A DNA stretch of 64,000 nucleotides from Thermococcus radiotolerans (GTDB lineage Archaea; Methanobacteriota_B; Thermococci; Thermococcales; Thermococcaceae). Under the pieces are notes generated by a model. That model ran no database searches and had not been told where the DNA came from. It was given only the letters and a program-made list of their open reading frames with translations. The stretch is taken from contig NZ_CP015106.1 of the NCBI RefSeq assembly GCF_002214565.1, positions 1,798,001 through 1,862,000 on the forward strand. The letters are read 5' to 3'. Positions 7,013 through 19,798 of the stretch are shown here, piece by piece (the first letter of the stretch is position 1; the number at the start of each line of letters is the position of its first letter). The translations under genes and the position numbers were made by a program.

Positions 7013-7288
7013 TTGGGGCACACGGTCTACTACCGCACCAAGATTGATAGATGGGAGGAGTTCAGGGGGTTCCTAAAGAAGATCTGCGAAGGGCTCGGTT
7101 TCGGTTTCCTTGAGGGCGAAGATGCAGTCATAATCTTTCCGGAATGCCACGGTGTCGAGCCCTTGGAGATAAAGAAGAGGGGTAAGGGGTTCGTCAAGAC
7201 GAACCTCGTCGAGCCCTGTCACTCGATTTATCTGCTCGTTCTTCATTCGGTTTCTTCATTCGGCTCTGTCGAGCTCTGGGAGGACTGA
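7013..7288 (+). CDS. Small conserved-type hypothetical protein
   Basis: 91-residue soluble protein of unknown function, starting with TTG after GGTGAT. It begins GHTVYYRTKIDRWEEF and contains FPECHGVEPLEI and VEPCHSIYLLVLH. The two Cys-X-X/His patterns (ECHG, PCHS) could bind metal, which is inference. Its 3' end overlaps the convergent gene 7243-7989 by 46 bases, so the two transcripts are antisense at their ends. Confidence 0.6.
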   Translation: MGHTVYYRTKIDRWEEFRGFLKKICEGLGFGFLEGEDAVIIFPECHGVEPLEIKKRGKGFVKTNLVEPCHSIYLLVLHSVSSFGSVELWED

Positions 7289-7989
7289 TCCGTGAGGTAG
7301 ACCTCTATTATCTTGACCGGAACCGCTCCCTTGAGCTTTCTGTCCTCCACGATAAGCTTCACCACCCTGCCAATCTCTAGGTCTTCCACGGCATCGACCC
7401 AGTAGTGGCCGGGCTTGACGTTTGCCGCTATGTCGTCGTGCACAAAGACCCTGACGACATCGCCTTTGATCTCTTCAACAATGCCGTAGGTGTAGTCCCT
7501 CCCGTATCTCTGCTTGAAGTACCACCTGAATGCCATGACGACTGCAAAGGCCACAAGGAGATATGCGTAGTAATAGTAGATGCTCGTGGCTATCCTGCGT
7601 ATCATCAGGTACCCGAGGAAAACTGCAAAGGAAATTGCCGATATTGCATAGTAGAAGAACCTGTACGGCTCGTGCTCAACAAAGAACTCTCTGTTTCTGA
7701 CCAGGGTATAGCGAAGATAGAGGAAGTACACCACTGCCACTCCCACAAGCCACAGTGGACTAGCCTTGATGAAGAGCAGGCCGAGGTTCACAATAAGGTA
7801 AAGAAGAAATGCCAGTTGGAGCTTGAGGCTGAGGTACTCATGAGTTGTGAGCCTCTTTTTCACGAGCCTGCTCAGGTACTTAAAGCTCGGCGGTTCCTTT
7901 GAGGGGGAGGGATTGATGAAATCTATGATGCCGTGGATCGCTGAATCCACAGACTCACCGATTCCGTAGAGGATGTCTTCCACCGACAT
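7243..7989 (-). CDS. DUF2101-type membrane protein, last gene of the CetZ-pilin operon
   Basis: 248-residue integral membrane protein. The N-terminal cytosolic part contains INPSPSKEPPSFKYLS. Four to five membrane segments lie at roughly residues 55-165, and a soluble C-terminal beta-rich domain has VRVFVHDDIAANVKPGHYWVD and ends in a Ser/Thr/Glu-rich tail. It resembles archaeal DUF2101 proteins, whose function is unknown. It starts 4 bases after the preceding pilin-like gene, with GGGGTGAAATC as ribosome-binding site, so it is probably co-expressed with the pilins and could serve as a membrane partner in their assembly (inference). Confidence 0.65.
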   Translation of the reverse strand: MSVEDILYGIGESVDSAIHGIIDFINPSPSKEPPSFKYLSRLVKKRLTTHEYLSLKLQLAFLLYLIVNLGLLFIKASPLWLVGVAVVYFLYLRYTLVRNREFFVEHEPYRFFYYAISAISFAVFLGYLMIRRIATSIYYYYAYLLVAFAVVMAFRWYFKQRYGRDYTYGIVEEIKGDVVRVFVHDDIAANVKPGHYWVDAVEDLEIGRVVKLIVEDRKLKGAVPVKIIEVYLTDQSSQSSTEPNEETE

Positions 7990-7993
7990 GATT

Positions 7994-10510
7994 TCACCCC
8001 TTCAGCAGGTCCTCTGCTCCTGTAGGTCCGAGTATCGCAATGGCCGTCTGGTTATCCATAAAGAACGGCACTATGCTTAAGTCTCCAGTCAGTGCACTTG
8101 TGCCGTAGGAAATGCCCCAGACACGGTAGCCGGGCGTCTTTGTCATGCTTCCGAAGTAGTAGTTGAGGAAGTAGTAGTCAACGCTCGTCTGCCCTTCTTC
8201 GACTGATATTCCAAAGTTGTTGAATATGTCAAAGAGCTTTCTGTCGTAGTCTGCATTGGGCACCATAAAGCTGACGAGACCTATCGGATAGTACTCTCCA
8301 CCGTACTTCAGTCCGAGCTCGTCCTGTATGCTCTTTGCTAGTTGGAAGTACTTGTTGTGGTTTACCCTGCTGTTTTCAAGGCGCTCGAAGAACGATACGC
8401 CCGTGTAGGTTCCAAAGTACTTCTGGTCTATTATGCACGATATCAGCGGCTGGAGGTCATAGGCTCTCCCTGCTGTTATTTGTATTTGTGCATTTTGAGT
8501 TGGTCTTTGTTCTATTTGAGTTGATATTGTGACTGTTGGAGGAATCTGTGTATATTTACGAACACGTATCCAGTCAATGTACCCATGCCTTGTATCTGAA
8601 TCTGTATCCGCAGCGATCTGCAGATGGAACCTTGTTAGAGGGGGCGACACTCCACTAGTTAACCAGCTATTTGAATAAGAATCCCAAAATTGTATCTGAG
8701 TGCCAGTATAAATCACTTGAAAACCTTGCCACTCTGTGGACCTTATTTGATTCCCAACAGCAGGATACGAGTCGTATACTCTTAGGGATTTATAGTTCCA
8801 AGAGTACCCATCATAGTCATACCCATCGTACCATGCATAAATAGCGGAATTGCTGAGCCATGGTGTGGTTTGTTGTGGTACTAGACCGATGGTTAAATCG
8901 GTATCATACAGGTATACATTCCTCCCTCTGTAATAAGTGTATCCTCCAAGCCTCCAAACACCTTCAATAATCACATTCGGAACAAAACTTTTGAGAGTAT
9001 TTATGTAGTATTGGTTGTTCCAGTTGCCCCACATCTTGATGTACCCATTTTCAATTGAATAATAATCTGTATTCGTTGTCCATTTTGTTGTGTCCAGTGA
9101 ATTTCCGTCAAACTCATCATAAAAATCAAATACCCTACTTGCATTTCCTAGTGTCTCTATACCGCTTGAATCAAAATATATACTAAGCGTTACTTGGGAA
9201 TTTGCTGGGATTGTGACATTAACCCATATCAGTGCCTCTTTGTCCGATGTATCCCAATTTTCAACCCAAAAGTTTACAGGATTGCAATTTGAGTCGTAGA
9301 TCTCCAGTATAGGGATGTTATTCCCATCGGGATCCGCAGTGTCAAAAAACGTGTTTAATGTATTTGGATCTGTGATGTGGGAGCTGTCAATGTAAATGGG
9401 AACTTGGAAGTTCGTTAGATCGTCCCCTCTGCTATTTTGGATAGTTACGTTAAGTCTGTTCCCCAATAAAGAGCACCAAGTGGCTCTTTCCGCTTCCCCA
9501 CTAACATTTTCAAAAATAAGAACTCCAACGTCATCGTCGTTGAAGACCTCTAGTGGCGAAATTGGGACGCCGTTTAAAGTAGTGTTTACAATGACGGGGG
9601 AGGATATGCTGGTTATATTGCCGTTGCGCAGTACGTATCCATCGGCACCGTCCCCAGGATATGTGTTTCCGTAGAAGATATGACCGGAATCCCAGGCCGT
9701 TGAGGAGTACTTTCCAAGGACGTGATCATCCTCACTCGTTCCGTTTCCATAGAGGGTCTTAATGGGCCTTTCTATGATCTCGGGGAAGGTATATTCACAG
9801 GGCTCAATTGAGCGGTAGTATCTGCCGTATGTTAGTGCAGAGAATATGGGATCTTCAAGGTTTTCGATTGAAATTGTTGAATATACGTAGTTTTCCCTTG
9901 GTATGGGGCCGGTATAAACAACCTTTCCGGAGACGTCTGAAATCGTTACATCTCTTATCTTGGCCCGTATGACTATCCTAAAGGCGTCCAATGGAGCAAC
10001 GGTTAGTTCGATGTTGCTCCTGAGGAAATTGCTCCTCTCAGAAGAACTCATGGTCCTAATCTCGCCGAGTGTTTTATTTGCTATCCTGAGCTCGTATCCT
10101 TGCTGCCTCAGCTTCTGAGAGATGTTACCGAGCCAGCCTAGAACCGTTTGATCCTTCATCAGCCGTTCGGAGTAGTTGCTCGCAACCTGTGTGGACTGGC
10201 CAAACAAAACTAGGTCACGTATTGTGGCGTTTGCCATGCCGTTTGGGTCATTTGGGTCCAAAAAGTCCCGTGTGTTTGCAATGTAATCTACAACGGTGAC
10301 TATAGCTCTTTTTCCGGATATCTCGAGGGTTCTTTGAAAGTCCAGCTCAACGTACGAGACTACCCTGTACGTTTTCTCAACCTGCGTTCTCTCGCTCTGG
10401 CTCATTATTATCTGAGACGAGACGTCCTCGTACGTCGCTAAGAGTAGCATCAGGGGTATGAGCAGGAGGATGACCGTTGAATTCATTAGGAACGCTCGCC
10501 GTTTTCTCAT
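7994..10510 (-). CDS. Large pilin-like surface protein with DUF2341 module
   Basis: 838 residues. The N terminus (MRKRRAFLMNSTVILLLIPL) is a basic patch followed by a hydrophobic helix like that of type IV pilins. The middle, from about residue 365, is a DUF2341-type module (DLTNFQVPIYID, SQVTLSIYFDSSGIETLGN) followed by a LamG/concanavalin-like region (FYDEFDGNSLDTTKW). This points to carbohydrate or surface binding. The C-terminal part has a separate composition and ends ILGPTGAEDLLKG. The gene's centre (about 8470-9420) is clearly more AT-rich than its ends. It overlaps the preceding pilin gene by one base (TGATG). Confidence 0.75.
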   Translation of the reverse strand: MRKRRAFLMNSTVILLLIPLMLLLATYEDVSSQIIMSQSERTQVEKTYRVVSYVELDFQRTLEISGKRAIVTVVDYIANTRDFLDPNDPNGMANATIRDLVLFGQSTQVASNYSERLMKDQTVLGWLGNISQKLRQQGYELRIANKTLGEIRTMSSSERSNFLRSNIELTVAPLDAFRIVIRAKIRDVTISDVSGKVVYTGPIPRENYVYSTISIENLEDPIFSALTYGRYYRSIEPCEYTFPEIIERPIKTLYGNGTSEDDHVLGKYSSTAWDSGHIFYGNTYPGDGADGYVLRNGNITSISSPVIVNTTLNGVPISPLEVFNDDDVGVLIFENVSGEAERATWCSLLGNRLNVTIQNSRGDDLTNFQVPIYIDSSHITDPNTLNTFFDTADPDGNNIPILEIYDSNCNPVNFWVENWDTSDKEALIWVNVTIPANSQVTLSIYFDSSGIETLGNASRVFDFYDEFDGNSLDTTKWTTNTDYYSIENGYIKMWGNWNNQYYINTLKSFVPNVIIEGVWRLGGYTYYRGRNVYLYDTDLTIGLVPQQTTPWLSNSAIYAWYDGYDYDGYSWNYKSLRVYDSYPAVGNQIRSTEWQGFQVIYTGTQIQFWDSYSNSWLTSGVSPPLTRFHLQIAADTDSDTRHGYIDWIRVRKYTQIPPTVTISTQIEQRPTQNAQIQITAGRAYDLQPLISCIIDQKYFGTYTGVSFFERLENSRVNHNKYFQLAKSIQDELGLKYGGEYYPIGLVSFMVPNADYDRKLFDIFNNFGISVEEGQTSVDYYFLNYYFGSMTKTPGYRVWGISYGTSALTGDLSIVPFFMDNQTAIAILGPTGAEDLLKG

Positions 10511-12729
10511 CAGCTCTCCCTCCAGACTCTGAGTGTTATGGTGATGGGCTGGAACAGGCCTGGTATGTTGCCCATGGAGACGAAGACTATGTTAACCGTT
10601 GGCGGTAGCTGCACCAGTATCGGGTCGGCCTGGGTCCCGTCTCCGCCCAGGTTGTTGAACAGCCTTATTATTGCGTCGTCGACTGCGTATCTGCCCCTAC
10701 CGTCGAGGAGGTCCTGGGCAGTGACATCGCAGTAGGGGGAATCTCCCGCGGTCACATAGTGAGGCGAGTTGTCCCCAACCCAGTAGTACGTTATATTGTA
10801 GCCGGAACACCCGGGTCTCAGAAGGGCTGGGAATACATTGCCGTAGCCTGCGAAACCCTGAATGACGTATGTGAGCTCTCCATATCCATATTTTGGTTGT
10901 AGTCTGTAATAGTTCCCTAATGATATCGTGATGCTGTTATCCCCTGGGGCGATCGCATTGGGGAGCGGGTCATATTTGTAGTCAAAGCTGTCTTTGGAAT
11001 ATCCAATCTGGGCAAAATGTGTAAACGGATTTGAGGGGTTACATGTTATATCTCCGCCTCCATCGTAGCAGTAAATATATGTTGGGGCTACTAGTAGAGG
11101 GTTACTAATCTGCATAGTTTGGTAGGGGGTTGTACCTGCATAGTATCTCCATGGGAATTGGAATCTTACCCACAGAGGAGTTGTTCCTTGGGGCACGTTA
11201 AAGTTTATTGCCACAGAGTCGGTCCAATCTTGATTCGGAAGGCTTATGGGCTCTGTTATATCTATGGTGTATGAAGTGAGGAGAACCCCGGGCGTGTAAT
11301 CGGCTTCTATGAATGACAAATCCCTGATTAGACGTATCCTCTTTGAATATTCCAAATCTTTGGAACTTTCATCCCCATTACCGCCGATGAAAAATTTAAG
11401 GACGACCCACTTGCCTGAGATTTGTGAATAATTGTATCCCGCACCACTTAGAGCCTGGGATATTGTTGCATTTGTCCAGTAACATGTTTTGATTTCTGTG
11501 GTGATATTGTATTGGCAATAAGTTGGGCTAACATTAACCTCATTGGTAAACACAAATCTCAGCGTGATATTATCGGTGGGACTTATGTTCTCTGCAGCCA
11601 CTTGAATGTTCATGCCAGTTAATATGCCCGGCACCATTAAGAACTTCCAGTATTCTATCCCATAGTTTGAGGTGACATCATCGAGATAAAACTTTTTGGG
11701 GAATTTTAACGTTGAGGGAGTCGATGTTTTGTACTTTACGGTCACATATTGAGCTGCATCTTCGCCCCCCCGGTAATACCACTCTCTGGTACGTCTATTA
11801 TAATAGTAGTTATCGTTGTAGTTCTGAACTTCGAACACAACTTCTTGGCCGTTACTAATAGCATCTTGGACTACTTCAACTAGATTACATGAATCTCCAT
11901 TGGTGGAGTCTCTGACTAAGTCATTCGCTTCAACAAGACTCCACTGGTCATACTGATTTCCGGTTATCTCTCCGGTGCATGTGACTGGGTTCCCATTAAC
12001 ATACAAGCGATATGTACTATCAACCCATGCTCCTTCAATAAACCATTTTACCTCCTCTATCACGGCATCTCTAGGAATAGTACCTGCGGGTATTACGTAC
12101 TTTATTGTCACGTGTTCATCAGAGTCTGGAGCTGCAGACTCAATGTATCCGCCCCTTATCGTGTATGTGTTCTCCTTGCTCCCCAGCTTGTTGAGGAATG
12201 CCCTCGCCATGTAGCCCCTCGGTGTCTGGTTGAAGGCGTAGCCGCTGAGTATAAGGGTCGCTGGGGTAACGTCCTGGGCGGCGGAGTAGTTGGAGCCGAC
12301 CTTACGGAGGTACGGGCTTGTGTAGTTGTTTATCAGGAGTTCGTAGTTGTAGTCCTTGAGGGTGCTGTTTAGTATGTACCCCAGTATAACTTCTGCCTTG
12401 TGGGTAAGGTTTGCTCCTGGAAAGAGCGGGGCTGTCGCCCAGTAAGTGGCAACGATATCTATAGGGGACATGTCCGGACTAACGAGGGCAAGATTCAGTG
12501 TTCCGTCGTCTGTCCAGTTCTTTATCACTCCTGGTGGGACGAACGTCCAAAGAGGCTGTGTTCTCATCGTTGTGAGGGAATCCTCTGCCAGGTACTTAGA
12601 TTGGGAGCGCATGTAGGTGGAGTACACCTGCGTGCTTGGATTGATTTGGGTTATGCTTACCACGAACATGGTGACTAGGAGAAGTGCAAGTATCGCATCC
12701 AGAGTGAATATGAATCCTCGCCTCTTCAT
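10510..12729 (-). CDS. Large pilin-like surface protein
   Basis: 739 residues. It begins MKRRGFIFTLDAILALLLVT, a class III (type IV pilin) signal: basic residues, a short polar stretch, then a hydrophobic helix with an acidic residue near its start. The following region is Thr/Ser/Asn/Tyr-rich and beta-like, as expected outside the cell. The centre (about 10870-12130) is more AT-rich than both ends, suggesting exchange of an external module. Its ATG overlaps the stop of the preceding reading frame (ATGA at 12726-12729), so that frame was meant to extend this far, which matters for the TAG at 12969. No known enzyme motif seen. Confidence 0.75.
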   Translation of the reverse strand: MKRRGFIFTLDAILALLLVTMFVVSITQINPSTQVYSTYMRSQSKYLAEDSLTTMRTQPLWTFVPPGVIKNWTDDGTLNLALVSPDMSPIDIVATYWATAPLFPGANLTHKAEVILGYILNSTLKDYNYELLINNYTSPYLRKVGSNYSAAQDVTPATLILSGYAFNQTPRGYMARAFLNKLGSKENTYTIRGGYIESAAPDSDEHVTIKYVIPAGTIPRDAVIEEVKWFIEGAWVDSTYRLYVNGNPVTCTGEITGNQYDQWSLVEANDLVRDSTNGDSCNLVEVVQDAISNGQEVVFEVQNYNDNYYYNRRTREWYYRGGEDAAQYVTVKYKTSTPSTLKFPKKFYLDDVTSNYGIEYWKFLMVPGILTGMNIQVAAENISPTDNITLRFVFTNEVNVSPTYCQYNITTEIKTCYWTNATISQALSGAGYNYSQISGKWVVLKFFIGGNGDESSKDLEYSKRIRLIRDLSFIEADYTPGVLLTSYTIDITEPISLPNQDWTDSVAINFNVPQGTTPLWVRFQFPWRYYAGTTPYQTMQISNPLLVAPTYIYCYDGGGDITCNPSNPFTHFAQIGYSKDSFDYKYDPLPNAIAPGDNSITISLGNYYRLQPKYGYGELTYVIQGFAGYGNVFPALLRPGCSGYNITYYWVGDNSPHYVTAGDSPYCDVTAQDLLDGRGRYAVDDAIIRLFNNLGGDGTQADPILVQLPPTVNIVFVSMGNIPGLFQPITITLRVWRES

Positions 12730-14138
12730 GAGTCATCCCACACCCACAGTTTTATAACGGTCGTCCTGAAGGAGGGTTTCATAAGGAGACCTATGTTGTC
12801 AAGATCGTTTATCGTGATGTTACTTCCGAAGGAGTTCTCATACACCCAAAGTTCTACAGGTTTTTCGCTGGTTTCATCGTTGAACTCCGAAAACAGTGCC
12901 CTCCATGGAATTTTGATGGAGGTTGTGTCCCCAGCATAAAACTCGGCGTAGGTTCTTTCGTTGGTCTTCTATGCTATGGTGGCATTCAAAGCATCTCCAG
13001 GAGAGCCCCTCTGGATTAGAATCCCCCTGAGGACGGTTCCATCGATCGCAACAAGGGTCAGGTTTCCAACACTGTTTTCGGGTACTTGGACTTCGAGATA
13101 CGCATAGCCCGGGACGTCGTGGATTAAGGTCCCCACGAGAATTGGAATCGGCTGTGTTGTTCCCACTACCCATGTTTTTTCGTATATCAGGTTCGAACTG
13201 ACAACTCTTCTTGAGATGTACTCCACCCATGGAGAACGGGATTTTGAGGCATTTATGGTACTCTCATCCTCGACAACGGTTCCGTTTATCACAGCAATCC
13301 TTAGGGAGGCGGTGGTTAGGTTGGCCGCTGGTATGACCACGTGCTTTATGGCGAGATTCCCCGCACTATTTCCGTGTATCATCAGTTTCACATGTCCATG
13401 TCCACCAATGTGTAGTGTACATGCGCCATCCGAAGAACCGAAGCTGTAATGATAGTTGCTCTGTGCGTCTACCAGTTTCACTGCTACGTATGACCCTGGC
13501 GGGATTATCCCCACCTGGGTATTTCCCGAAACCAAGACCTGGGCCTCGTCAACTGTTATAAATTCCAGGACGTCCCCTTTGTCCATCGTAAGGGGGTTTC
13601 CCGTTGGGGAGGGTTCGCCGTTAAGAAGGACACTGTCGCACTTCACCCGGAACGCCTTATTTCCTGAGTTGTCCGTTGAGAGTGCTATTTTGATGTTTTG
13701 TAACTCACTCGTGAGGTTCATGAGTATCTCCTCTGGAAACTCACCGGAGACCGTTATGTTTGTCGTGGTTAGGTAGAATTCAAGCTGGAAATCCTTAGAG
13801 TCCGCTATGCTGTAGAGGTTTGTAACTACGGATGAGACGTTGATAAAGTTGCCCAGCGCCTGAATTTTCTGAGAGCTTATTGCAAAGGGGTACGAATTGT
13901 CCCTGAGACCCAAAAGTACGATATTCGTGGGATTCTCCGTCCAGTTGTCGGGGGTTCCAGGGTTCTTCACGAGTATATCCAGCATGTTGTCGCCCACGTT
14001 GGCCCTCTCATACCAGCCCAGCACTGTGGTTATCTCCCCCTTTAGGGCGTTGGACGTCGTGGTTATCGTGCCAAGCAGGAGTATGATTATCACCATGGAC
14101 AGCATCGCATCGAGTGAAAGCAGCTGACCGCGCCTCAT
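12726..14138 (-). pseudogene. Pilin-like protein gene interrupted by an in-frame TAG
   Basis: The N terminus MRRGQLLSLDAMLSMVIIIL is a class III signal. The frame runs 389 codons to TAG at 12969-12971. The same frame then stays open for 80 further codons (KTNERTYAEFYAG ... IKLWVWDDS) to a TGA whose bases overlap the next ATG by four. Every other junction in this operon is tight, so the ancestral gene was almost certainly 470 codons. Explanations are a nonsense mutation, a sequencing error, or readthrough. The shorter 12969-14138 product would still carry its signal and most of the external domain. Confidence 0.75.
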
Positions 14139-14608
14139 CTTCTCACCACATCAACGTTTATCTCAATCTCTCTTCCCCGGAGGTACAGCTTTCCGTTCTC
14201 CCTAACGACGTTGGTCTTGGAGACTAGGTCGTCCTCTATGTACTGCTTTATGTTAGCCTCAATGGTGGCCTCCGGAAGCCCGGCCCCCGCGTAGGTTATG
14301 GTGATGTTGATCTGCATCTTGCCGTTTACGTCCGCACTGCGAACGCCGGCGAGCTGGAAAGCCCTGTACGTGTAGTTGCTCGCCGTTATTATGGCGTTGA
14401 GGGGAGAATATATGCTTTCGTTGCTAACAACGCCGGTATTTAGGTATGCGCACGCGTCGGAAGCCGAAGTGCGGACGTAGGATACCGCGGACATCGCGGT
14501 GTTCTCATTCAGGTACGATGGGGTCACCACGAGGACTCCCGCTAGGATTATCGCCAGGATGAACAGAACCTCTATGGCGCTCTGGGCCCTACGGCGAGAG
14601 GACGACAT
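14135..14608 (-). CDS. Small type IV pilin-like protein
   Basis: 157 residues. The N terminus MSSSRRRAQSAIEVLFILAI has the archaeal pilin signature: basic run, then Q-S-x-x-E followed by a hydrophobic helix, with processing expected before the Gln or Ser. The rest is a small, probably beta-rich extracellular domain (MQINITITYAGAG). It overlaps the downstream gene by ATGA and the upstream pilin by 20 bases. Probably a filament or pseudopilin subunit processed by a FlaK/PibD-type peptidase, which is not encoded here. Confidence 0.8.
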   Translation of the reverse strand: MSSSRRRAQSAIEVLFILAIILAGVLVVTPSYLNENTAMSAVSYVRTSASDACAYLNTGVVSNESIYSPLNAIITASNYTYRAFQLAGVRSADVNGKMQINITITYAGAGLPEATIEANIKQYIEDDLVSKTNVVRENGKLYLRGREIEINVDVVRR

Positions 14609-15035
14609 CGAGTCTCCCCTCCGTTTCGTTGTACGTCGCCACTATGCCGAAATCCCTCTTCGTGTCGGTAAGCGTTACCGAGCTGTTCTCGTATATTGGA
14701 ACCGGGCTCCTCTGAACGACGGTGTAGCCCCTTCCTCCCAGACTCGCGTTGACAACAATGCTATCAGGAGTAATCAGGCTGACAGTAACCTTGTCTCCTG
14801 AGTCCAGCTTTATCGGCAGCTCCTTCCTTACCGCGAATCCGTCTCCCGCCGCGTAAACCTTCACCACTGAGTCCCTGACGTCCACGGAGAATGCCTTCAG
14901 CTTTGCGATCGTGTCAAAGGTCTCGGAATGGGCCCTCTCGCTGTCCGCAATGTAGACTAGGTTGAGCATCGTGATGGTTATCAGGGTCACTGCGAAGAGA
15001 AAGTCAAGGCTTATCTGTCCCCGTTTCATCTTCAT
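14589..15035 (-). CDS. Type IV pilin-like protein
   Basis: 148 residues beginning MKMKRGQISLDFLFAVTLIT, a class III signal with processing expected at the RG/Q junction. The hydrophobic helix spans about residues 10-28 and is followed by a beta-rich domain (SGDKVTVSLITPDSIVVNAS). It overlaps both neighbours, by 4 bases with the upstream pilin and 20 with the downstream one. This suggests translational coupling and fixed stoichiometry among subunits. Confidence 0.8.
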   Translation of the reverse strand: MKMKRGQISLDFLFAVTLITITMLNLVYIADSERAHSETFDTIAKLKAFSVDVRDSVVKVYAAGDGFAVRKELPIKLDSGDKVTVSLITPDSIVVNASLGGRGYTVVQRSPVPIYENSSVTLTDTKRDFGIVATYNETEGRLDVVLSP

Positions 15036-15664
15036 CCACCGGGGTTTATGTTTATGTGAAGCTCACCGGTCGTTGAGTTGAACATCCATGAGTTGGGGTT
15101 GTCGGGGTTCCACTCAACGACTATCTCCAGCGTTGCCGGGAGGGTCGCGGGGTCGAGATCCAGCCCGTAGACCGTGGATGATCCAAAGGTGACGCTTCCG
15201 GACGGCGACCATACGGATGAGTTGGTGTACAGAACCGCCTGGTACATCGCCCTGCTCCAGAAGACGTTCTTGTTCCCGCCGCTGAGAACGGCGGTAACGT
15301 TGGTTCCGGTTACGGTGACGTACGTGCCGTTGCCTTCGGCGCTGTAGTTTCCGTAGGTTATAAACACGGAAGCGTTATTGACGTTCAGCCCTTTCCGGAG
15401 CATCTCGGGGTCTCGCAGGTACGTCAGTCTCACATAGGTGGTTGACTTGGCTCCAGGGCCCTGGGCGTAAACCTGTGATATCGTGTTGGAGATAGCATTG
15501 GCGAGGTTCTTCTCCTCAAGGCTTATCTGAATTCGAAGGGTCTCGGTTGAGGTTGAGCCCTCCCTGAACGTGATGTTGTTTACGGAGTAAAGCAGGAGTA
15601 TGAGCATCATTCCAAAGATTAACATGAACTCAAGTGAAACCTGACCACGCTTTTTTATCCGCAT
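15032..15664 (-). CDS. Type IV pilin with QxSxE motif
   Basis: 210 residues beginning MRIKKRGQVSLEFMLIFGMM, the classical euryarchaeal QxSxExxxL pilin signal. The helix runs to about residue 30. The C-terminal domain is Asn/Thr-rich with several N-x-S/T sites, compatible with N-glycosylated filaments. A GAGGGGAGAGAT ribosome-binding site precedes the ATG, and a TATA-like GATTAAATAG about 35 bases upstream could give the pilins their own transcript. This is the best candidate for the major subunit of the set. Confidence 0.85.
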   Translation of the reverse strand: MRIKKRGQVSLEFMLIFGMMLILLLYSVNNITFREGSTSTETLRIQISLEEKNLANAISNTISQVYAQGPGAKSTTYVRLTYLRDPEMLRKGLNVNNASVFITYGNYSAEGNGTYVTVTGTNVTAVLSGGNKNVFWSRAMYQAVLYTNSSVWSPSGSVTFGSSTVYGLDLDPATLPATLEIVVEWNPDNPNSWMFNSTTGELHININPGG

Positions 15665-15697
15665 ATCTCTCCCCTCAGTATGGTATATCTCCGAACA

Positions 15698-15707
15698 TCT
15701 ATTTAAT
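15698..15707 (-). promoter_or_regulatory. Possible internal promoter before the pilin genes
   Basis: On the minus strand GATTAAATAG at 15707-15698 lies about 35 bases before the QxSxE pilin start. The 38-base gap here is one of the few breaks in an otherwise overlapping operon. It could allow extra expression of structural subunits over the upstream CetZ and membrane protein. Confidence 0.4.
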
Positions 15708-16332
15708 CGTTACTCTCCGATTTTCCAGCGTTTACGACGGCGAAAAGGCCGGTTCCGACCCTTTTAGTCTCAACGCCGAAGTAATCTCCGCTGAATATCT
15801 TGAACTTGTACCTCTCAGGATGAAGGGAGTGTTTCTCTATCAGCTCGGCCAGTTCGTCGATGAAGAACTGCGTCAGCTCATAGTAGATTAAATCAAGCTT
15901 CTCACGGGTGGAGTCCCTGATCAGGAGAACCGCTGGCAGTATTGCAAGCCCGATGATGAAGTACGGCTGGCCAGTGAAGAAGGACGCGAGTGCAGTTGCA
16001 CCTATCGTCGCACCTATTGCGGCGTACAGGCCCTTCTCCCGCTTCTTCGCCTCTTTAATCTCCTTGACCTTCTGCTCCCAGATGTCGAGCAGCGCAGGAT
16101 TGTAGAAATCAAAGGCTGTGTGGCGCTTTCCCTTGGCTATCCTCTCCCGGATGAGGTCGTCCCAGTCGTCCTTGTAGTAGATGACCTCCCCGTGGAGCTT
16201 CGCCCTCTCGGCATCGAGGGAGGAGATAATTCGAATGATGTCCTCGGCGCTCTCGTGGGCAATGTGGGCGTAGACCTCCTTCTCGTTGAGGTCGAGGGCC
16301 ACCTCGACGGAGTCCTTTATCGGCTCAGTCAT
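15703..16332 (-). CDS. Membrane protein encoded with CetZ
   Basis: 209 residues, no family recognised. The N-terminal half is charged and helical (LDLNEKEVYAHIAHESAEDIIRII, cut here to its key part EKEVYAHIAHE). Two membrane helices lie around residues 100-140 (GLYAAIGATIGATALASFF and YFIIGLAILPAVLLI). A second helical cytosolic part, FFIDELAELIEKHSL, follows. Its start overlaps the CetZ stop by 8 bases, so it is translated with CetZ and may anchor CetZ filaments to the membrane (inference from position and topology). Confidence 0.6.
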   Translation of the reverse strand: MTEPIKDSVEVALDLNEKEVYAHIAHESAEDIIRIISSLDAERAKLHGEVIYYKDDWDDLIRERIAKGKRHTAFDFYNPALLDIWEQKVKEIKEAKKREKGLYAAIGATIGATALASFFTGQPYFIIGLAILPAVLLIRDSTREKLDLIYYELTQFFIDELAELIEKHSLHPERYKFKIFSGDYFGVETKRVGTGLFAVVNAGKSESND

Positions 16333-17494
16333 CCCTCTCCCTCCGGAGCCTCTTGCTTATACCTTCGATGTCCGGGTACTCTCCGTCGGGGATTCCCTTC
16401 AGCTCGCTCCCGCCCTTGGCGTAGACGTCGTCGAAGTCAGGCAGGCCGCTTAGGAGCTCCTTCTTTTTGTTCTCCGCTTCCTCTTTTGCCTCCATGAAGG
16501 ACTGGGCGTACTGCTTGGCGGTGATGATTATGTCCTCGATGCTCTTGCTCTCGTAGATGCCGCTGAGGAGGGTTACAACCTCCACCTCCCTCTCGCGCGG
16601 GTCCGGATAGAAGCCGCGGAATATCTGCTTGCCCCTTATCTTGTTGGTGAGATAGTTGAGCGCCTCGAATATGTCTGCGGCCTTCAGCATCTCCGGCGGC
16701 CCGTGAATCGCAACCAGCCCGTACAGCGCCGATTCGATGTTTGCCTCGAGGTACAGGCCTTCGCTCTCGAACGACTTGATGATGAGCCTTGAGAGGCTCT
16801 TTACCTTGCCCGCGTCGGCCTTGGCGTAGCCGACCGTTGCAAAGCTTCCGAAGGCCTTGAGAACGAACTTCAGGTCGCTCGCGTCCAGCGTCTGTTCGCC
16901 GGGAACGTCAACCAGGGCTAAGAGCGACGCTATCCTCTCGACTATCGTGTAGTTAATCCTCTCGTAGGCCTTGCTTATGTCGTCGCCCCCTTCCTTGAGC
17001 TTGTTGTTGTCTATGGCTATTATCGAGTCCGCGATCTTCGAGAGCTTGTCGATGGTTATCGCCGCGTTGATGGTGGGCCTTATCCCCTCCTCCTTGAGGG
17101 GGAGTGCGCCGATGGCCACCACCAAGGAGTCTGGGTACTCCTCTTTGAGCGCCTCGGCCAGGACGGGCGTTCCTCCGGCGCCCGTTCCGCCGCCGAAGCC
17201 AAAGGTCAGGAAGAAGATGTCGATATCCTCGTAGCCGATTATTGAACCTATCTTACGCATGACGAGGGGCAAATCGCGCTTCATGGCCTCCCTGCCGAGT
17301 ATCGGGTTCGCGTTGACCCCCTTGCCGCCGGTCAGGCTCTCACCTATGAGTATCCTCCGCTCCTGGGAAACGTGCTTGAGGTACTCCAGGTCGCCCCGGG
17401 AGGTGTTTATGGCCAGAGCCTCAAAATCAACCAGAGCGAAGAGGTCGGCTATCTTCGTTCCGCACTGGCCGACCCCTATGATTAGAGCCCTCAC
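16325..17494 (-). CDS. cetZ: CetZ, tubulin/FtsZ-superfamily GTPase
   Basis: 389 residues. The N-terminal Rossmann GTPase domain has ALIIGVGQCGTKIADLF and the tubulin signature FGFGGGTGAGGTPVLAEAL (GGGTGAGG near residues 100-107). NxT/T7-type contacts lie in EEGIRPTINAAITIDKL, and ADSIIAIDNNKL follows. The Gln in GQCG and the GAGGTP form are typical of CetZ rather than bacterial-type FtsZ. CetZ proteins polymerise with GTP and control cell shape and motility in haloarchaea (established). Here the gene heads a pilin operon, which suggests a role in placing or assembling surface filaments (inference). The charged tail is rich in Lys/Arg/Asp. Confidence 0.88.
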   Translation of the reverse strand: MRALIIGVGQCGTKIADLFALVDFEALAINTSRGDLEYLKHVSQERRILIGESLTGGKGVNANPILGREAMKRDLPLVMRKIGSIIGYEDIDIFFLTFGFGGGTGAGGTPVLAEALKEEYPDSLVVAIGALPLKEEGIRPTINAAITIDKLSKIADSIIAIDNNKLKEGGDDISKAYERINYTIVERIASLLALVDVPGEQTLDASDLKFVLKAFGSFATVGYAKADAGKVKSLSRLIIKSFESEGLYLEANIESALYGLVAIHGPPEMLKAADIFEALNYLTNKIRGKQIFRGFYPDPREREVEVVTLLSGIYESKSIEDIIITAKQYAQSFMEAKEEAENKKKELLSGLPDFDDVYAKGGSELKGIPDGEYPDIEGISKRLRRERDD

Positions 17495-17501
17495 CTCTTA
17501 A

Positions 17502-19724
17502 TCACCCCACGACTATTACCCGCACCTTACCGTTTTCGTTGAGGAGAACCATCGCGTCTCCCCTGATGTACCTTATGAAGCCTGTGGTGAAGACCTCCTT
17601 GGCAATTTCGGCGTTCTCCTGCTCGTAGAATACGAACAGGACGACTCCCTTGGGGGTCTTGCCAGGAATTAGAATGACCGCCTTGTCAACGGGCACCGTG
17701 ACGTTGCCGACGGTGACGGTTTCGTTTGTAAGGTGGAACTTCAGGTATGGGTTGTACGGTCTCACGAAGTACTCGCCGTAGTGGGTCATGACTATGTAGC
17801 TGCCCTCGCCTATCGTGGTTGTGTTGAGGGCTATGAAGCCGCCGCTGAAGAGGTCGTTGAGCATGTCTATCGTCTCGTTTACCGTGGCACCGTCCATGTG
17901 GGGTGCGATTATTCCGAACACATTGCTGTCGAGGGCGCCCCTTACATCGTAGAGGCTCACCGGCGGAACGTACTGGAAGCGGGAGAGGTAGTTTACTGCG
18001 CTGGCGATTTCTATCGTTTTGTTGTCTATGGCCCCGGAGTCCCTGGCGTTCATGACGAATTCAAGCGTCTCGTTGGTGTAGTTGTACCCGTAGTTGATCA
18101 GAAGGTCCGTTGCCCTGAGGGTGAGCTCGACGGTCGGCGTTCCCGGGAACTCCCTGTTCTTCTCCCAGACGTAGTAGGTCTTCCAGTACGGCCAGCCGCC
18201 CTCGATCCTCTGGTCAATGAGCCAGTCTATGTGGGGCTGGAGCTCTTCCTGGGAGGCTATTCTCTCCAGGGCCTCCAGGACGGTTATGGTCGTCAGCACG
18301 TCCGGCTTGAGCATGTATGAGTAGTACTTCGTCGTTACGTGGGTTCCCCATCCGTCGTTGCTTATGCCCAGGAGCCATTCCTTGGCCTTCTGAATCAGGG
18401 AGTCGTTTGCTGGGACTCCGAGCTCACGGAGGGCTTTGATGGCCAGTGCGGTCTCGTAGGGCTGTGGACCGAGAACGGTGTTGCCCCAGAGGCCGTAGTC
18501 GAGCTGAACGCTGCGTATCAGCTCCTCCGCCTGAGCCTTTTCCTCGGCGGTCAGGTTGTTGTACATGAGGAGCGTCTTCAGTGCGTAGTAGTAGCCGACG
18601 GACATCCTGCGCTCCTGCCTCATCCAGGCCGCGTCCCTCTCGAAGGCCTCTCTCGTCCACGCGAGGGCCTTTTCAATGCTCTCCTTCTCGGGATAGCACG
18701 CCTGGATGCTCATAAGTGCGTAGTAAGTGGCCTTCTCGTCGGAGGGCTCGTTGGGTCCGAGACCCCATCCCCCGTCGGGGTTCTGTATGTTCTTCAGCTC
18801 CTGGCATGGCATCTCGTAGGGGTTCTTTACCTCTTTCGCAGGTGGAAGCTCGAACGGTGTTGAGAAAGCCATGAGGGCGTAGGAGGTGGTGGCTATGAGC
18901 TCCGTCGATGAGAAGAGGTCTGGAGTGTTCATCCAGTAAACGAGGTCGTTCGTGCTCTTGCTGTACGATTCCAGCTTGATGAGTATCCTCGCCGTGTCGA
19001 AGTCTATGGGTGTGTGAAGTACGAGGGCGTACGTTAGCATGGCGCGCTCCTTCATCTTGAGGTTCTCGTCGTTGAGAAGGATTTCCTTGACGCTTTCAAT
19101 GGTCTCGTTATCGACGGGATAACCTGTGCTGTGGTAGGCTATGAGCTTCAGGGCGAGGGCCTCGTACTCGGATATCTCGCAGGTTGTGGTGTTCTCCACG
19201 TATTTTATCGCGTCCCTAACGACTTTGCTGTTGTAGTTGTATCCGCTCTCTCCAAGGGCCCATATCGCCACGAGGGTTGGATAGCACGAGGTCGGGGTTC
19301 CCGGCACGTAGCCCCATCCGCCCTTGTTCTCCGCGGAGAGGAGGTATGAAACTCCCCGGTTGATGGCGTCCCTTACGCTCTCTACCTGCAGTGCCCCGAG
19401 GATTGGGTCTGCCTTCTCTAGGGCGATAACTGCGTAAGCCGTGTCGAGGACGTTGCTGGTCTCGCCGGGGTACAGGCCCCATCCCCCGTCAGGGTTCTGA
19501 TACTTGAGAAGCGTCGTCACGAGGTTGTTCAGGTCTGGAGCCATGTCCCACTCCAGATCGTTGCTGGCCTCGGAGAGCGCCATTATAGCGAGGCTTATTT
19601 CCCTCGTCTGCTGGCTTGACTTGGCCGCATCCTTGAGAAACCTTGCGGAGCCGTCTATCGTTCCGGCGCTAACGGCTGGAATCAGCATGAGAACAATCAT
19701 TACTAGAGCCAGAACCTTCTTCAT
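17502..19724 (-). CDS. Secreted alpha/alpha-toroid (prenyltransferase/terpene-cyclase repeat) protein
   Basis: 740 residues. A Sec signal peptide (MKKVLALVMIVLMLIPAVSA) is followed by many copies of the prenyltransferase/squalene-cyclase repeat, e.g. YQNPDGGWGLYPGE, NKGGWGYVPG, IQNPDGGWGLGPNE, ISNDGWGTH and RIEGGWPYW. No DxDD or other cyclase active-site motif is evident and the protein is extracellular, so it is more likely a binding or structural toroid than a terpene cyclase. The C-terminal 130 residues form a distinct domain. Start at the ATG 19724 with GGGGTG seven bases upstream; a GTG at 19727 is possible. First gene of the CetZ-pilin operon. Confidence 0.75.
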   Translation of the reverse strand: MKKVLALVMIVLMLIPAVSAGTIDGSARFLKDAAKSSQQTREISLAIMALSEASNDLEWDMAPDLNNLVTTLLKYQNPDGGWGLYPGETSNVLDTAYAVIALEKADPILGALQVESVRDAINRGVSYLLSAENKGGWGYVPGTPTSCYPTLVAIWALGESGYNYNSKVVRDAIKYVENTTTCEISEYEALALKLIAYHSTGYPVDNETIESVKEILLNDENLKMKERAMLTYALVLHTPIDFDTARILIKLESYSKSTNDLVYWMNTPDLFSSTELIATTSYALMAFSTPFELPPAKEVKNPYEMPCQELKNIQNPDGGWGLGPNEPSDEKATYYALMSIQACYPEKESIEKALAWTREAFERDAAWMRQERRMSVGYYYALKTLLMYNNLTAEEKAQAEELIRSVQLDYGLWGNTVLGPQPYETALAIKALRELGVPANDSLIQKAKEWLLGISNDGWGTHVTTKYYSYMLKPDVLTTITVLEALERIASQEELQPHIDWLIDQRIEGGWPYWKTYYVWEKNREFPGTPTVELTLRATDLLINYGYNYTNETLEFVMNARDSGAIDNKTIEIASAVNYLSRFQYVPPVSLYDVRGALDSNVFGIIAPHMDGATVNETIDMLNDLFSGGFIALNTTTIGEGSYIVMTHYGEYFVRPYNPYLKFHLTNETVTVGNVTVPVDKAVILIPGKTPKGVVLFVFYEQENAEIAKEVFTTGFIRYIRGDAMVLLNENGKVRVIVVG

Positions 19725-19763
19725 CACCTTACACCCCTAAGCTCATTCTAAGCGGCCAGAATA

Positions 19764-19775
19764 AATAAACTTTTT
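19764..19775 (-). promoter_or_regulatory. Promoter of the toroid-CetZ-pilin operon
   Basis: On the minus strand GTTTATTTATTC (19775-19764), preceded by an A-rich GGAAAAA stretch, is a plausible BRE/TATA about 40 bases before the ATG at 19724. No other promoter of comparable quality is seen until 15.7 kb, supporting one long transcript. Confidence 0.5.
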
Positions 19776-19798
19776 CCATAATAGGAAGAAGAAGGGAC

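Follow-up and report, generated by a model that had tools for sequence, protein, structure and literature searches.

Apparent exchange of pilin, adhesin and toroid genes around a fixed CetZ core in an operon of Thermococcus radiotolerans and its relatives

The link between CetZ and pilin operons in the Thermococcales is already known. In two published accounts, Makarova 2016, which cites Szabo 2007 on this point, reported that the clade-1 type IV pilus loci of most Thermococci include genes for an FtsZ-family GTPase and a squalene cyclase (PMC4858521), and Brown & Duggin 2023 found all 15 Thermococcales cetZ regions analyzed to be associated with pili and proposed CetZ as a scaffold (PMC9856176). 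Here, we describe one such locus, a ten-gene operon in a 64,000-nucleotide stretch of DNA (the window; positions 1,798,001 to 1,862,000 of the closed 1.87-Mb genome of Thermococcus radiotolerans; features of the operon are given in window positions). A preliminary description of this DNA had put the operon forward as an undescribed system, a claim that the two accounts overturn. Within the literature searched, three features look new: the mosaic exchange of genes around a fixed core of CetZ and the adjacent membrane protein g8, a peptide at the C terminus of CetZ, and g8 itself as a Thermococcaceae-specific partner.

According to the open reading frames (ORFs) of the window, the operon consists of 10 consecutive minus-strand ORFs from 7243 to 19727. 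They are transcribed in the order g10 (toroid), g9 (CetZ), g8 (membrane protein), g7, g6, g5, g4 and g3 (pilin-like proteins), g2 (DUF2341) and g1 (DUF2101). All ten of the tightly spaced genes in the preliminary description were present, and the identities given there to the toroid, CetZ and DUF2101 agreed with the Pfam matches. The junctions ranged from 20-base overlaps to 38-base gaps; the sole exception to the tight spacing was the 239 bases between g4 and g3, where an in-frame TAG was found (see below). A TATA-like site was present 20 to 80 bases upstream of g10 in 50 of 54 genomes, while 17.6 were expected from shuffling. Upstream of the other operon genes, such sites occurred at, near or only slightly above the shuffled expectation. 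Since the one conserved TATA-like site lies ahead of the toroid only, the ten genes are, as far as sequence can tell, one unit with one conserved promoter.

To define the conservation of this unit, 94 Thermococcaceae genomes were scanned for cetZ and g8, and about 19 kb around cetZ was compared in 56 genomes besides the window. A close match to cetZ, full or partial, was found in 89 of the 94 genomes; the remaining five were fragmented assemblies with only more distant tubulin homologues. The g8 gene was strictly paired with cetZ, being matched in 89 genomes and lacking in the same five. The ten genes were kept in identical order and on the same strand across the 56 other genomes, far beyond chance, except for the toroid in two of them (L082 and L093, where taw1 lies directly upstream of cetZ) and g1, which was not found in L100. 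Apparent losses of the toroid or g8 in L085 and L088 were rejected as ORF-calling artefacts. Instead of lying apart from pilin genes in most relatives, cetZ adjoined them in every Thermococcaceae genome with a readable region, and the CetZ-pilin link of the preliminary description therefore came through the neighborhood survey intact. Neither CetZ nor g8 was found in 16 genomes from sister families of the class, save one weak g8 match. A 233-aa membrane protein that is encoded on its own, in an unrelated context, in a sister family lacking CetZ (L136:6135-6836) gave a weak 20-bit match to the C-terminal half of the g8 profile.

Mosaicism was measured among 57 genomes, 18 pairs of which have CetZ proteins at least 97% identical. 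In 13 of these 18 pairs, at least one other gene was less than 60% identical (the toroid in 6, g4 in 7, g3 in 7 and g2 in 6); CetZ, g8 and g7 never fell below 60%. Nucleotide comparisons located the breakpoints. The window and L049 were 90% identical up to g6, mostly unalignable from there to g1, and 80 to 87% identical after it. L061 and L063 were 92% identical up to g5 and 89 to 95% again past the exchanged part, and L083 and L089 differed sharply inside the toroid, with shorter gaps in g3 and g2. The g2 to g6 products of L049 were 75 to 88% identical to those of L058, whose CetZ is 89% identical, but only 36 to 52% identical to those of the window, whose CetZ is 97% identical. In a tree of CetZ plus g8, the window, L049 and L050 grouped together with a support of 99. 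The same grouping was rejected in the g3 tree by the approximately unbiased (AU) test, with a P value of 2.7e-11 that applies to a clade picked after the distances had been seen and to a tree with long branches.

Nearest-neighbor incongruence across the 57 genomes was highest for g2 (26), g3 (22) and g4 (20), followed by g7 (11), g1 (10), g6 (7), g5 (6), the toroid (4) and g8 (2), with CetZ at 0 by construction because it served as the yardstick. The incongruence ranks with the expected surface exposure of the products. After removal of the CetZ and g8 distance, covariation persisted between the toroid and g5 (partial Spearman coefficient, 0.56) and between g2 and g3 (0.65), and neither value was reached in any of 999 permutations. 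On these comparisons of sequences, mosaicism affects the pilin/adhesin genes and, separately, the toroid, with alleles apparently swapped between species at sharp breakpoints while CetZ and g8 stay put, and some alleles of the pilin block appear to come from other species.

The g9 product matched Tubulin (108 bits) and CetZ_C (60 bits) in Pfam, both over the cut-off, and the closest solved structures were those of archaeal CetZ (4b46, 4b45 and 3zid). The GGGTG loop and the T7 DxSD residues were intact in all 57 CetZ proteins; therefore, CetZ should be an active tubulin. All 57 also carried the peptide GLPDF(D/E)D at the C terminus, after a linker helix, which is the position at which FtsZ bears its partner-binding peptide. 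In g8, alignments showed the N-terminal ~95 residues to be far better conserved than the membrane part. The AlphaFold model of g8 (pLDDT, 80) had no match with an E value below 0.1 among PDB or viral structures, and assignment of g8 to a known fold was therefore rejected. We regard g8 as a protein specific, by its distribution in the genomes scanned, to the Thermococcaceae, with a strongly conserved domain. The charge around its hydrophobic hairpin suggests that both ends are cytosolic, and the conserved domain is probably cytosolic as well. The proposal in the preliminary description that this protein anchors CetZ at the membrane is plausible, and it is slightly strengthened by the strict pairing with cetZ and the near-invariant N-terminal domain.

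The preliminary description had noted that pilins normally need a PilB-type ATPase and a PilC-type platform protein and, correctly, that neither is encoded in the ten-gene cluster. The absence is ordinary and no argument for an undescribed system, because the genome carries PilB, two PilC-type proteins and EppA at other loci, a dispersal also seen in Methanococcus maripaludis (PMC3875500). Two PF00437 ATPases scored over the cut-off in the T. radiotolerans genome, one of them in the archaellum operon (L046, with Arch_flagellin). The non-archaellar one, PilB (genome positions 1,565,271 to 1,567,133; T2SSE, 175.6 bits), is preceded by a DUF515 protein and followed by two adjacent T2SSF platform proteins of the TadB/C type (86.8 and 58.9 bits). 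A PilB orthologue was found in 92 of the 94 Thermococcaceae genomes, including all 74 good ones, and the distance between cetZ and PilB, taken from coordinates in 34 genomes, was 31 to 971 kb (median, 251 kb). The EppA-type prepilin peptidase (406 aa; Arc_PepC, PF06819, 101.5 bits) adjoins a 54-aa class III pilin, and two small stand-alone class III pilins of 60 and 62 aa at 605.8 to 606.2 kb are candidate major pilins. The genome holds most of the features expected of a clade-1 type IV pilus: PilB, two TadC-type platform proteins, an EppA-type peptidase, five pilin-like N termini plus DUF2341, and small pilins. Among 14 control genomes, DUF515 was found in one (M. jannaschii) and DUF2341 in two, M. 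jannaschii included. In about half of the genomes (e.g., L105), the PilB match stops at residue 459 within an open frame of ~820 to 1230 aa, which looks like the mark of an intein; both Pyrococcus and Methanocaldococcus have known KlbA inteins. The PilB locus is followed downstream (L045:12232-16171) by genes for a MoxR-type AAA ATPase, DUF58 and DUF4129, which share one strand.

Six class III-like N termini had been proposed for g2 to g7. Three fitted well (g7 and g5 with Glu, and g6 with Asp), two were "xLDA" variants (g4 and g3), and the sixth, that of g2, fell outside the class: its N terminus (RRAFLMNST in the window and RRGFLLNS in relatives) had no acidic residue at about position +5 of the mature protein in any genome sampled. 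Class_IIIsignal scored over the cut-off in one of the five pilin-like proteins, g7. A pilin without the acidic residue is expected only at the tip, the position proposed for GspK of type II secretion systems. The N terminus of g2 thus points to a tip position, in agreement with the placement of DUF2341 proteins at the pilus tip in Makarova 2016 (PMC4858521).

The wide gap between g4 and g3 arises where TAG stops g4; the same frame stays open to 12726, ends in a conserved IKLWVWD stretch and overlaps g3 by 4 bases. None of the relatives examined had a break in g4, and a 4-base overlap with g3 was usual. Because the closest g4 alleles have Trp at the TAG position, a single G-to-A change (TGG to TAG), either a nonsense mutation or a sequencing error, would explain the break; a frameshift in 12969 to 14138 was rejected. 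The g4 allele of the window is an outlier, with a best match in the set of 45% although the neighboring g5 is 93% identical to that of L050, and it seems to have been exchanged alone. Two alleles encoding long g4 proteins of 818 to 918 aa (L064:7587-10343 and L094:8839-11295) contain a bactofilin-like region just under the Pfam cut-off. A second g2/g3 architecture, with a g3 of ~860 aa and a g2 of ~367 aa instead of the usual ~700 and 800 to 1150 aa, was seen in L051, L055, L056, L063, L073 to L075, L090 and L094. The short g2 had no DUF2341 match in the three genomes tested (L051, L064 and L094). Further DUF2341 proteins are encoded in the T. radiotolerans genome at L153, L154 and L155, one of them a weak match within a 4057-aa open frame.

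Foldseek related the toroid g10, modeled by AlphaFold with a pLDDT of 88, to squalene-hopene cyclase and to C3d/TED folds. However, among 54 toroid orthologues, none had the cyclase motif DxDDT(A/T) and none had the thioester motif C(G/L/A)EQ. The toroid was therefore rejected both as an active terpene cyclase and as a thioester protein, and for a modeled toroid without the reactive motifs of either family, binding is likelier than catalysis. Membership of the cluster in a defense system was also rejected, as none of the six cluster proteins tested had a PADLOC match.

Table 1. Features of the cetZ operon, in window positions
Feature	Position	Strand	Description and evidence
g10	17502..19727	-	Secreted protein with two alpha/alpha toroids and a C-terminal alpha/beta domain; first gene of the operon; Pfam SQHop_cyclase, Prenyltrans and TED, AlphaFold, Foldseek
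g9 (CetZ)	16325..17494	-	GGGTG loop and catalytic T7 DxSD pair; GLPDF(D/E)D peptide invariant at the C terminus; Pfam
g8	15703..16332	-	CetZ-paired membrane protein with near-invariant N-terminal ~95 residues, hydrophobic hairpin and small C-terminal domain; alignments, AlphaFold
g7	15032..15664	-	Minor pilin with canonical class III N terminus GQVSLEF; PF04021, 27.8 bits
g6	14589..15035	-	Minor pilin-like protein, GQISLDF; N termini in relatives
g5	14135..14608	-	Minor pilin-like protein, AQSAIEV; N termini in relatives
g4	12726..14138	-	Large pilin-like protein, GQLLSLDA; broken by in-frame TAG at 12969-12971 (389 aa before, 80 codons after)
g3	10510..12729	-	Large pilin-like surface protein, GFIFTLDA; probable tip or adhesin partner; covaries with g2
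g2	7994..10510	-	DUF2341 surface protein, PF10102, 76 bits; no acidic residue in the N terminus; probably at the tip
g1	7243..7989	-	DUF2101 membrane protein, PF09874, 264 bits; three hydrophobic segments
BRE/TATA-like element GGAAAAAGTTTATTTATTC	19759..19777	-	Only conserved promoter-like site of the operon

We consider it fairly probable that the operon encodes the minor pilins, the tip/adhesin and accessory parts of a putative Thermococcales clade-1 type IV pilus, in which CetZ and g8 would form a membrane-anchored scaffold. EppA would trim the pilins, and PilB and the platform proteins of the distant locus would assemble the small stand-alone pilins into a filament, with g5 to g7 as its primer. 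The g2, g3 and g4 proteins would lie toward the exposed tip, with g2, which lacks the acidic residue, at the very end. At the base, g8 would hold CetZ at the membrane, perhaps via the invariant C-terminal peptide, and membrane-held CetZ would position or stabilize the pilus. The secreted toroid, lacking catalytic motifs, may bind the exposed part. Recombination within the conserved DNA of the flanks and core would trade the exposed genes between species, with the cytoplasmic CetZ-g8 core inherited vertically, and selection on recognition (by viruses, surfaces or mating partners) probably drives the exchange. In Sulfolobus, susceptibility to viruses has been tied to pilins (PMC7217056), and in the Sulfolobales pilins set species-specific recognition (PMC7064770). 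As precedents for a pilus-associated CetZ, CetZ1 of Haloferax has been implicated in the assembly and positioning of the archaellum (PMC11621097), and haloarchaeal cetZ2 lies beside pilB2/C2 loci (PMC9856176). The following points weigh against this reading. Within the literature searched, no experiment ties CetZ to a pilus in any Thermococcales. The putative CetZ-g8 contact is drawn only from adjacency, pairing and conservation. The topology of g8 is uncertain, with one clear transmembrane segment by hydropathy and a hairpin in the AlphaFold model. Finally, the covariation between CetZ and g8 is stronger than that of either with the pilins, which would also fit a general role in the envelope.

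One use of such a pilus, compatible with the reading above, could be the uptake of DNA behind the natural competence of the Thermococcales. It is a plausible use because type IV-like pili are needed for transformation in M. maripaludis and Methanoculleus thermophilus, and T. kodakarensis and P. furiosus are listed as competent (PMC10133366); moreover, as the exchange within the operon shows, foreign DNA enters the cells and recombines by some route. We nevertheless find this use rather doubtful, since no Thermococcales mutant has been tested within the literature searched, Methanoculleus thermophilus may use a pilus of a different clade, and pili serve adhesion too. A more specific version, in which the CetZ-g8 scaffold is dedicated to a DNA-uptake or recognition pilus and cells use the exchange to swap exposed subunits in blocks between species while the base stays constant, is speculative and seems unlikely.

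It is similarly unlikely that CetZ and g8 form a general cell-shape or envelope module that shares the promoter of the pilin operon for co-regulation only. CetZ does control haloarchaeal cell shape, cetZ is not near pilin genes in the Archaeoglobales and methanogens (PMC9856176), and CetZ and g8 are inherited vertically, in contrast to the exchanged pilins. However, the linkage has been kept family-wide despite repeated replacement of the pilin block, and the linkage of haloarchaeal cetZ2 to pilB2/C2 is an independent case (PMC9856176). Less likely still is a short type II secretion-like pseudopilus or surface-anchored adhesin complex, for which the toroid would be a partner or a cargo to be exported, while the stand-alone pilins would form long pili independently of the operon: most pilin-like proteins here are large and minor-pilin-like while the small major-pilin candidates lie elsewhere, the toroid is secreted and first in the operon, and only one non-archaellar PilB scored over the cut-off, so that both structures would share it, but in clade 1 the minor pilins are, as a rule, encoded away from the major pilin and PilB (PMC3875500, PMC4858521), and in two species the operon is whole except for the toroid.

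With CetZ fixed in a putative pilus operon across the Thermococcaceae, genetically tractable species among them, whether an archaeal tubulin positions or builds a pilus can be put to a direct test, for which g8 offers a partner gene and the C-terminal peptide a candidate docking site to mutate. In the mosaic exchange of pilus genes, recombination between species has left a natural record, one that suggests that selection acts strongly on the exposed subunits.

The locus matches the Thermococcales cetZ and clade-1 loci of the published excerpts (PMC9856176, PMC4858521) in having an FtsZ-family GTPase, a squalene-cyclase-like protein, five to six predicted pilins, a DUF2341 surface protein and membrane proteins. 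Beyond those excerpts, we find a mosaic pilin block and toroid around cetZ-g8, an invariant CetZ peptide, and a pilB gene at least 31 kb from cetZ in the closed genomes compared. The EppA-dependent pilus of M. maripaludis (epd locus) likewise has separate loci for the minor pilins, for the ATPase and two platform proteins, and for a small major pilin, together with a dedicated EppA (PMC3875500); in contrast, its EppA is encoded within the minor-pilin operon, and the Methanococci are not among the orders with CetZ listed by Brown & Duggin (PMC9856176). The haloarchaeal cetZ2 gene beside pilB2/C2 (subclade 4F) is also linked to a pilus locus, but PilB and PilC are encoded inside that locus, the pilus belongs to another clade, and the linkage is patchy and mobile-looking (PMC9856176). 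Finally, the VARTIG modules of the Thermococcales (PMC8416519) resemble the cetZ operon in that interspecies recombination diversifies surface proteins in the same archaeal order. Those modules are patchy, shuffled gene sets with Ig domains, whereas the cetZ operon is family-wide and fixed in order, with alleles apparently swapped in place.

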